A stretch of DNA of 64,000 bases. Source: Stenomitos frigidus ULC18. GTDB taxonomy: Bacteria > Cyanobacteriota > Cyanobacteriia > Leptolyngbyales > Leptolyngbyaceae. The notes under the pieces are model-generated. The model worked only from the letters and a program-made list of their open reading frames with translations, did no database searches and was not told where the DNA came from. This document shows positions 13,491 to 15,417 of the stretch, piece after piece. How positions within the stretch are numbered: position 1 is the stretch's first letter; the number at the start of each line of letters is the position of its first letter. Made by a program: the position numbers and the translations under genes. The stretch spans positions 1 to 64,000 of the forward strand of contig NZ_PVWK01000008.1 in assembly GCF_003003795.1 (NCBI RefSeq), read 5' to 3'.

Positions 13491-14048
13491 TTAGCTGAGT
13501 GCTTGAGCTTGAGCAGCCTTACGCTTCTGGCGCAGAGCACCCACGCCCAAACCAATCAGACCAGGCAACAGTGCGGGTGTAGGAACGGCTGTTGCTGTCA
13601 CGCTGCCGCTTGCCACATCACGAGTAACCCCTAGCCCATTTGGAAACCCTAGCTTCTCAAAAGAGAAAGCTGACACCATTGCGATCGTGCCACCAGCATC
13701 GGTCAAAGGCGCATCAAACAACGCTTTGAGAAAGCGATCGGAGTTAATGAGCTCCAATCGAGTCGCGCTTTGCAGACTGCCAGTAGACGATGGAGATGAA
13801 AAGGTAGTGCCTGGGAAAAATAGGTTCGACGGTGAAGATGTCCCAACAAATGTTGTGACATCGAACTGAGAAAGCACGCCAGTGGCCGCATCGTAATTAA
13901 ACGAGCCTTTTGCTGTACCGCCATCAACAAACTGGGCATTGAGGTTCCAGGTCAGTGCAGCAGCCGAGGCTGGAGTTACATGGGTAACAAAGGCAGCGGT
14001 AGTGCCGATAGCAGCTACCGTCATAAGAGCCTTTAGTTTCAGGGTCAT
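13491..14048 (-). CDS. exported PTPA-CTERM (PEP-CTERM-like) protein
   Basis: A 185-residue secreted protein. It has an N-terminal signal peptide (LKALMTVAAIGTTAAFVTHVTPASA), a beta-rich Ser/Thr/Gly body, and a C-terminal sorting tail: VPTPALLPGLIGLGVGALRQKRK, that is a PTPA motif, a hydrophobic segment and a basic cluster. In cyanobacteria this tail marks proteins for exosortase-type processing. The body (NLNAQFVDGGTAKGSFNYDAATG) is a common theme of such surface proteins, with no known activity. No exosortase gene lies in the window. Confidence 0.85.
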   Translation of the reverse strand: MTLKLKALMTVAAIGTTAAFVTHVTPASAAALTWNLNAQFVDGGTAKGSFNYDAATGVLSQFDVTTFVGTSSPSNLFFPGTTFSSPSSTGSLQSATRLELINSDRFLKALFDAPLTDAGGTIAMVSAFSFEKLGFPNGLGVTRDVASGSVTATAVPTPALLPGLIGLGVGALRQKRKAAQAQALS

Positions 14049-14693: not shown

Positions 14694-15020
14694 TCACCCC
14701 AAATGCTTATCCAACGTCGCTGCCAGCGTCTTTTTCGGTACCGCACCTACGAGGGTATCGATCGCCTGTCCGGCTTTGAACAGCAACAGCGTCGGAATGC
14801 TGCGAATACTATACTGACTGGCAATACCAGGATTCTCGTCTGTATTGAGCTTGACGACTTTTACCTGACCTGTGTACTGGGCGGCGAGTTCATCCACGAT
14901 CGGAGCCACCATCCGACAAGGGCCACACCACGGAGCCCAAAAATCGACCAGTACGGGTAGATCGCTAGCAAGCACTTCTTGTTGGAAGCTGGAATCGGTA
15001 ACGGTAGTGACAGAAGACAC
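14694..15020 (-). CDS. trxA: thioredoxin
   Basis: A classical 108-residue thioredoxin with the active site WCGPC (Cys32/Cys35) in [17 protein letters not shown], the structural cis-proline in [12 protein letters not shown], and the C-terminal helix. It reduces disulphides of many cytosolic enzymes. It is transcribed away from an ArsR-type gene, and the 70-base gap between them holds two perfect inverted repeats. This arrangement suggests that the ArsR protein controls trxA. Confidence 0.96.
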
Positions 15021-15045
15021 GGCCTCCCTCCTGATATTTCAATAG

Positions 15046-15060
15046 TTCGAGAAACTCGAA
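15046..15060. promoter_or_regulatory. perfect inverted repeat between trxA and the ArsR gene
   Basis: TTCGAG AAA CTCGAA: six-base arms with a three-base centre, 26 bases upstream of the trxA start and 31 bases upstream of the ArsR gene. Its position between two divergent genes makes it a candidate ArsR operator. This is inference from position and symmetry. Confidence 0.5.
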
Positions 15061-15083
15061 TAAGTAAACCATAGCGCGTTTTG

Positions 15084-15096
15084 TGTCATAATGACA
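15084..15096. promoter_or_regulatory. perfect inverted repeat overlapping the ArsR start codon
   Basis: TGTCAT A ATGACA: six-base arms around one base. It covers the ATG at 15091. Binding here would block translation initiation or transcription of the regulator itself, consistent with autoregulation. If translation starts at the next ATG (15100), the repeat lies wholly in the leader. Confidence 0.45.
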
Positions 15097-15417
15097 ACTA
15101 TGAGGCTGTTATATCATCCCGACAAAAAAGAGCTTTCGTTAGCAGGCGTTTTGTATGCGCTGGGCGACCCGGTACGCTTAGAAATTGTGAGACGGCTGGC
15201 TGAAAAGGGCGAACTATCCTGCTGCGAAGCGTTAGAAGCACAGGTTGCCAAGTCTACGCTCTCTCATCATTTCAAGGTGTTACGTGAATCGGGCGTGCTG
15301 TATTGCCGTAAAGAGGGCACACAGCATATGAATTCGTTGCGTCGTGCTGATTTAGACGAGCGTTTTCCCGGTCTCTTGAATACTGTTTTGCAAGCGATCG
15401 AGCCGCTCAAAGCGTAA
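15091..15417 (+). CDS. ArsR-type winged-helix transcriptional regulator
   Basis: A 108-residue HTH protein: LAGVLYALGDPVRLEIVRRLAEKGELSCCEAL, then the recognition helix KSTLSHHFKVLRESGVLYCRKEGTQHMNSLRRADLDERFPG. The Cys-Cys pair (SCCEAL) and the later Cys of LYCRK could sense redox state, which would fit its place back-to-back with thioredoxin. The fold is that of the ArsR/HTH_20 group. The start could be 15091 or 15100. Confidence 0.82.
   Translation: MTTMRLLYHPDKKELSLAGVLYALGDPVRLEIVRRLAEKGELSCCEALEAQVAKSTLSHHFKVLRESGVLYCRKEGTQHMNSLRRADLDERFPGLLNTVLQAIEPLKA

Follow-up and report, generated by a model that had tools for sequence, protein, structure and literature searches.

We are fairly confident that the gap between the divergent genes trxA and rexT of Stenomitos frigidus ULC18 regulates a RexT-TrxA2 redox switch. 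It holds a predicted RexT operator (15046-15060), and RexT most likely also controls, in trans, an unlinked gene for an Old Yellow Enzyme (OYE). The gap lies in a 64,000-nucleotide stretch of contig NZ_PVWK01000008.1, which we call the window; its features are listed in Table 1. The evidence observed here comprises the orthology of the regulator, the conservation of the operator, the promoter layout, a second operator, and the gene associations across relatives.

Table 1. Features of the trxA-rexT region, in window coordinates
Feature	Position	Strand	Description	Basis
trxA	14694..15020	-	TrxA2-like thioredoxin, 108 aa, GTG start	ORF; TIGR01068, 135.9 bits
Ribosome-binding site of trxA	15027..15032	-	AGGAGG	sequence; SD-like in relatives
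Outer TTC	15038..15040	+	additional half-site, conserved in part, lying 8 bases beyond the core	conservation profile
First palindrome	15046..15060	.	TTCGAGAAACTCGAA (TTCGAG-AAA-CTCGAA); very probable RexT operator, TTCGA-N5-TCGAA	spans about +1 to +15 of the trxA transcript (predicted start)
trxA -10 box	15068..15073	-	TATGGT (TATAGT or TATATT in most relatives)	inferred from sequence
Second palindrome	15084..15096	.	TGTCAT-A-ATGACA	overlap of the rexT -10 and trxA -35 boxes
rexT -10 box	15087..15092	+	CATAAT, 7 bases before ATG 15100
trxA -35 box	15091..15096	-	TGTCAT (most relatives: TTGCAT); 17-base spacing to the -10 box	inferred
rexT	15100..15417	+	105 aa from ATG 15100 (frame also open from ATG 15091)
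Cys41-Cys42 codons	15220..15225	+		sequence, alignments
Cys69 codon	15304..15306	+	RexT position 68	sequence, alignments

The gene pair

An ArsR-type gene on the + strand and a thioredoxin gene on the - strand are separated by 70 bases, counting to the first in-frame ATG (15091). A sequence-only reading of the window had described this divergent gap and two perfect palindromes within it, and both palindromes are indeed exact. Finding two in one gap by chance is unusual but not extreme on its own: the window contains 58 perfect inverted repeats (arms of at least 6 bases, loops of 0-3), or 0.06 per 70 bases, and two or more occur together in 0.42% of its 76-base stretches. Composition cannot settle the matter by itself; conservation tells the two palindromes apart.

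The trxA product has a thioredoxin domain with a CGPC active site. Another TrxA, 74% identical to it, is encoded elsewhere in the genome, which would be as expected for a TrxA1/TrxA2 pair. The gene next downstream of trxA (13491-14048, - strand) encodes a secreted-looking protein with the C-terminal tail VPTPALLPGLIGLGVGALRQKRK. We take this tail to resemble the PEP-CTERM/PTPA sorting tails. This gene is unrelated to the detoxification genes that are found after trxA in relatives.

The ArsR-type protein is a RexT ortholog

By sequence and by its modeled fold, the ArsR-type protein is an ortholog of RexT. Its best match in the PDB (phmmer) is RexT of Nostoc PCC 7120 (7txm, E = 1.7e-41), and the next is far weaker (2.8e-5). 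An AlphaFold2 model, built from the window protein and 13 relatives, had a mean pLDDT of 86. When the fold was compared to known structures, the six RexT chains had TM scores of 0.88-0.92 (per query length) at 65-66% identity, while the next among the chains listed scored 0.66. Thus, this is an ArsR winged helix-turn-helix protein that is nearest to RexT by both measures, and a thioredoxin gene adjoins it. The closest named RexT among the matches listed is from Tildeniella nuda (order Oculatellales; 90%). The window protein has the peroxidatic Cys41 along with Arg61 and Asn77. Across 159 distinct homologs, Arg26, Lys/Arg50, Cys41, and Arg61 are present in all, and Asn77 is present in 158.

In Nostoc PCC 7120, RexT represses trxA2. 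H2O2 oxidizes RexT, with formation of a Cys40-Cys41 disulfide, and RexT then leaves the DNA; TrxA2 reduces it again (PMC8960804; PMC13421787, PMC9025218, and PMC5923263 also cover this background). The sequence-only reading, which proposed a redox-sensing loop with thioredoxin, had the outline right, as a RexT ortholog does lie beside trxA; the loop was already known from PCC 7120, and the interpretation as a whole is partly supported. The RexT-TrxA2 system of Nostoc (Anabaena) sp. PCC 7120 (alr1867/all1866; PDB 7txm, 7txn, 7txo) is likewise a divergent pair with an operator in the gap, and the two RexT proteins have in common their fold and the equivalents of Cys41, Arg26, Lys50, Arg61, and Asn77. 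The window protein differs in having Ser40, Cys42, a cysteine at position 68, and a one-residue insertion after Cys42. Also, the OYE gene of the window's genome is unlinked, yet it has the operator.

Could the protein instead be a metal or arsenite sensor that lies beside trxA by chance? NCBIfam's broad model for the metalloregulator ArsR/SmtB subfamily just passes its cut-off (58.7 versus 55 bits). But the nearest structure is RexT, by sequence and by fold. Furthermore, As(III), Cd, and Zn were tried in a gel-shift assay of RexT, and RexT is described as lacking metal-binding motifs (PMC8960804). On reading the 105-aa window protein, we did not find the metal-ligand motifs as that source defines them (ELCVCD or CXCXXC in alpha3; DXHX10HXXE in alpha5). 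We rejected the metal sensor, which is almost certainly wrong given the best match to RexT and the lack of these motifs.

The first palindrome is very probably the RexT operator

We collected RexT homologs from 388 cyanobacterial genomes, of which 109 have a match at E = 1e-20 or better, and further loci from a smaller search of 58 relatives and from a set of at least 80 named loci. All sources together gave 195 loci. Of these, 159 are distinct, as judged by identity of a 180-base stretch (near-identical species were kept), and 113 of the distinct loci have a divergent trxA. Duplicates (L039, L055, L082, L085), the window's own copy, L001, L019, and L118-L122 were removed before counting. No start codon was found for L020, L038, or L183.

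The best match to TTCGA-N5-TCGAA is perfect (10/10) in 92 of the 113 trxA-rexT gaps, 9/10 in 17, and 8/10 in 4. A score of 9/10 or above was thus reached in 109/113 distinct gaps but in only 6 of 2,260 base-shuffled gaps (never 10/10), although the relatives are not independent, so these counts overstate the evidence. The distance from the end of the operator to the ATG of rexT is also conserved, at 38 or 39 bases in 96/113. The profile of the operator over the gaps is ttaaTTCnaTaa[TTCGAtAataTCGAA]tAAttAAAaTATAg. Given this conservation, RexT very probably docks on the first palindrome.

The operator previously cited for RexT is ATTCG-N15-CGAAT (PMC8960804 and PMC13421787). This sequence is not in the window's gap, which has the core TTCG-N7-CGAA. 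TTCG-N7-CGAA is present in 100/113 gaps, as compared to 22/113 for TTCG-N15-CGAA (PCC 7120 is not among the named loci), and we rejected N15 as the conserved spacing. Most of the N15 cases arise from an additional TTCG that lies 8 bases beyond the core; for instance, the loci from Nostoc parmelioides (L192) and Anabaena subtropica (L198) have both spacings. By these counts, the conserved spacing of the core is N7 and not the cited N15, which goes beyond the accessible literature. Contacts with an outer half may still occur, given the partial conservation of the outer TTC. In the window's own genome, the 15-base core by itself shows no enrichment (6 sites; the reversed pattern gives 21). What marks the real operators is their position together with the -10 block.

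The palindrome also sits at the inferred start of the trxA transcript, where it might fold into a 5'-terminal stem-loop of the mRNA that affects stability or translation, instead of serving as a DNA operator. The arms can pair: the outer three pairs are complementary in 113/113 gaps, and the next two are complementary in 101 and 104. But the arms are nearly invariant, which leaves no covariation to back an RNA stem, and the innermost pair is complementary in just 74/113. Moreover, the same core lies at the same distance from a -10 box before the unlinked OYE gene, and it tracks the presence of rexT. We consider the hairpin to be very unlikely, and we favor the DNA operator.

Predicted overlapping promoters account for the second palindrome

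In 85/113 gaps, the trxA strand carries TTGCAT-17-TATNNT (readings with a 19-base spacing are also available in 55). The window's boxes are weaker than those of its relatives. These boxes would place the start of the trxA transcript at about 15061, with the operator at about +1 to +15.

For rexT, 99/113 gaps have a NATANT box 6-8 bases upstream of the ATG. A Shine-Dalgarno-like sequence precedes rexT in 0/113 cases, as compared to 96/101 for trxA. In the 12 bases that precede RexT residue 1, the nearest ATG is out of frame in 82/113, absent in 19, and in frame in 12. Together, the lack of a Shine-Dalgarno sequence and the mostly out-of-frame upstream ATGs suggest that RexT most likely starts at ATG 15100 and that its mRNA is leaderless. 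A -10 box 7 bases before the start codon also implies that the mRNA is probably leaderless. There is a precedent in CvkR of Anabaena, whose gene is leaderless and divergent from its target (PMC9938897).

The second palindrome was said to cover the regulator's start codon. It does cover ATG 15091, but the likely start, ATG 15100, lies outside it. The sequence-only reading had proposed to check whether the palindromes are conserved in relatives; the first one is, as described above, but the second is exact in just 3 of 159 distinct relatives, and single changes break it within the genus. Might both palindromes nonetheless be operators, with RexT or another protein on the second one for autoregulation over the start of rexT? 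The palindrome is exact, and its pattern arose in none of 100 shuffles of the window. Against this, besides the poor conservation, its sequence is unlike the RexT half-site, and two overlapping promoter boxes account for it. We rejected a second operator in this gap on the basis of conservation, and we consider it very unlikely. As judged across the gaps of relatives, the second palindrome is the overlap of the promoter boxes, and it is not conserved as a palindrome.

A RexT with an altered cysteine set

The protein was also described as Cys-rich. Numbered from ATG 15100, it has three cysteines, Cys41, Cys42, and Cys69 (RexT position 68), which is not a notably high number, and their positions do not coincide with those of the published Cys40-Cys41 switch. 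The vicinal pair Cys40-Cys41 is absent: multiple alignments show Ser40-Cys41-Cys42. (phmmer pairs CC with CC by means of a gap, and a one-residue insertion makes the multiple alignments differ. We preferred the multiple alignments because the flanking E38-L39-x-C41 matches across relatives.) Thr68, from the proposed catalytic tetrad, is also absent, and the window has Cys at the equivalent position. According to PMC8960804, some thioredoxin-adjacent homologs have Ser or Cys at position 68, and 85 of 105 thioredoxin-adjacent homologs have Cys40. Given the latter, we classify the window protein as a RexT variant and not as the published switch protein.

Among our 113 thioredoxin-linked homologs, Cys40 is present in 61, Cys68 in 37, and Cys42 in 13 (these sets overlap). 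Cys40 and Cys41 are also found together in Aphanocapsa sp. GSE-SYN-MK-11-07L (L022), Leptolyngbya sp. PCC 6406 (L035), Synechococcales CRU_2_2 (L044), and four members of the genus group that includes Nodosilinea nodulosa PCC 7104 (g92; L057, L059, L062, and L067). Presumably, none of these seven hosts belong to the Nostocales. According to PMC8960804, the dual-Cys motif is not observed in Synechococcales or Oscillatoriales. The homologs from those orders, which are described there by sequence, have Cys41 and Cys68 and lie beside a thioredoxin gene, as in the window; the window protein adds Cys42, so that its vicinal pair is shifted by one from Cys40-Cys41. A RexT with Cys41, Cys42, and Cys69, and without the Cys40 of the described switch, is by sequence an addition to the accessible literature.

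A second predicted operator before an Old Yellow Enzyme gene

Three of the six TTCGA-N5-TCGAA sites in the window's genome are inside open frames of 191, 384, and 583 codons. Another (G000:C77:16083-16097, L120) is 64 bases upstream of a gene for an Nramp-type transporter, and it has no -10 block. The full layout is present at two sites, before trxA and at G000:C41:26351-26365. The latter is 157 bases before a gene for a 368-aa protein of the OYE family (PF00724, 8.3e-80), which scores 391.9 bits against the N-ethylmaleimide reductase model, below the cut-off of 403. In this 7-Mb genome, the only exact matches to the extended operator are those before trxA and before the OYE gene, and the sole match with one mismatch is the trxA operator read on the other strand. 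With up to two mismatches, there are 16 matches, versus 10 for the reversed pattern.

Across the 388 genomes, the exact extended pattern gave 30 rows, versus 6 for the reversed-pattern control. Of the 30, 25 are beside rexT (three on the opposite strand from rexT) and two are before OYE genes (in the window's genome and in G005). At the remaining three (G004:C591:9236-9263, or L242; G254:C440:5580-5607; G187:C31:63809-63836), neither rexT nor an OYE gene was found beside the site. L242 ends about 290 bases past the site and may be the cut-off upstream end of the OYE gene of G004. Since the exact pattern is found in 26 genomes and RexT in 109, the exact pattern misses many true sites.

We also found 49 OYE matches in 40 of the 58 relatives, and we examined 30 of these loci. 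Three had rexT beside or near the OYE gene (L251, L259, and L266), and we scored the other 27. The operator, at 9/10 or better, is within 400 bases upstream of the OYE gene in 7/9 loci from genomes with rexT, versus 0/18 from genomes without it (Fisher p = 4e-5, which is not corrected for kinship; seven of the nine are from one genus). The two misses are L249 (G002), which scores 8/10 and keeps the layout, and L245 (G004), where the contig is cut off 194 bases before the gene. Among the 18 loci from rexT-less genomes, two score 8/10. In five genomes without RexT (loci L255, L256, L257, L258, and L262), the OYE gene is preceded, at a distance of 250-840 bases, by the gene for a distant ArsR protein (37-41% identity), and there is no RexT operator. 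The pairing of ArsR and OYE may be older than the link to thioredoxin.

The second copy of the operator suggests that RexT also controls a detoxifying enzyme. It is doubtful, though we leave it a modest chance, that RexT serves only trxA here and that the operator before the OYE gene is a vestige, or the site of a different regulator. The OYE gene is unlinked in this genome, and the OYE genes of rexT-less relatives do without the operator, both of which would fit. On the other hand, the OYE operator and its spacing from the -10 box persist across most of the genus as well as in G009 and G025, and adjacency of rexT and OYE genes is widespread. These argue for control of the OYE gene by RexT.

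Genes associated with rexT across relatives

Besides the 113 distinct loci with a divergent trxA, 33 have a divergent OYE gene and no trxA, and 13 have neither. In other words, of the 46 distinct loci that lack trxA, 33 have OYE in the divergent position. At 69 of the 113 trxA-divergent loci, an OYE match lies further out on the same strand; most flanks extend for 1-2.5 kb, so OYE is undercounted. In the 13 loci with neither, the divergent strand encodes a nitroreductase (L012, L094), a zinc-type dehydrogenase (L113), a glutathione S-transferase (GST; L117), or a short-chain dehydrogenase/reductase (SDR; L151). On reading, the divergent genes of L010, L011, L013, L088, and L099 look unrelated, and the flanking stretches covered for L020, L038, and L115 contain no gene.

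Among the 72 named loci with a divergent trxA (out of at least 80), the roughly 2.1 kb downstream of trxA contains an OYE gene in 47, SDR in 27, nitroreductase in 8, and GST in 7. At least one of these four is present in 53/72, versus 0/72 for a control stretch with the same nominal length downstream of rexT. (The trxA-side stretch is at least 2,000 bases in 61/72 and under 300 in one; the control stretch is at least 2,000 bases in 68/72.) The 19 loci with none of these genes after trxA include the window's nearest relatives, L123-L125.

OYE-linked loci often have TTCG-N8-CGAA. A perfect core with N7 or N8 is present in 24 of the 33 OYE-divergent loci, versus 0.8% of shuffles; the other nine score 7/8, which 19% of shuffles reach. 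Of the 13 loci with neither gene, three score 8/8, eight score 7/8, one scores 6/8, and one is too short. In one genus group (g41; L018, L087, L091, L098, L100, L102, L107, and L109), long palindromes surround TTCG-N8-CGAA between the OYE gene and rexT. Compared to L018, the changes in L100, L102, and L109 are matched on both arms, suggesting that selection maintains the dyad. At one locus, L130, a contig filed under a metagenome-assembled genome of Candidatus Gracilibacteria carries a cyanobacterial rexT-trxA-OYE locus; this contig is probably mis-binned.

Proposed mechanism and regulon

We propose that a reduced RexT dimer would sit on TTCGA-N5-TCGAA, at about +1 to +15, and block initiation at trxA. 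Oxidation at Cys41, with Cys42 or Cys69 as the likely resolving partner in this lineage, would release RexT. With RexT off the DNA, trxA would be expressed, and thioredoxin would then reduce RexT and close the loop. rexT would be read the other way from the overlapping promoter, whose -10 box is 7 bases before the start codon. Finally, RexT most likely also represses, in trans, the unlinked OYE gene with the same promoter-operator layout. We took repression, release by H2O2, and re-reduction by TrxA2 from the literature on PCC 7120; RexT binding in this organism, the disulfide partner, the leaderless start, and control of the OYE gene are predictions. As far as sequence can tell, the window encodes a RexT-TrxA2 switch with a changed set of cysteines, and the OYE gene, which is elsewhere often beside rexT, is unlinked and has the operator.

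The gene associations suggest that RexT probably runs a detoxification regulon. A broader proposal, to which we give slightly less than even chances, is that RexT acts as master repressor of an electrophile-detoxification regulon in cyanobacteria (OYE, SDR, nitroreductase, GST, and zinc-type dehydrogenase), with TrxA2 as the thiol-repair arm. Cys41 would sense reactive electrophiles or quinones besides H2O2, the second cysteine would be free to move (40, 42, 44-46, or 68), and the regulon in the window's genome would span two loci that are joined by the same operator. Such a response would be of the NemR-nemA type, in which a thiol-based repressor controls an OYE that is similar to N-ethylmaleimide reductase. 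NemR is a TetR-family protein, so it has only the logic in common with RexT.

A nearer parallel is CyeR-Cye1 of Corynebacterium glutamicum. CyeR is a redox-sensing ArsR protein in the same similarity cluster as RexT, it controls an Old Yellow Enzyme, and its key cysteine, as described, is equivalent to Cys41 of RexT; it differs in that its second cysteine is seven residues away and it is proposed to be a monomer (PMC8960804). The accessible literature gives RexT a single target, trxA2. In the open-access literature, which does not include the primary papers on RexT and CyeR, we identified no paper that links RexT to a cyanobacterial OYE, which is weak evidence of novelty.

If it holds, the link to OYE and other reductases would widen the presumed signal of RexT from peroxide to electrophile stress. 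The shifting second cysteine would offer a natural series for studying how a conserved peroxidatic Cys41 recruits differing resolving partners. And the sharper definition of the operator would make the RexT regulon predictable from sequence.
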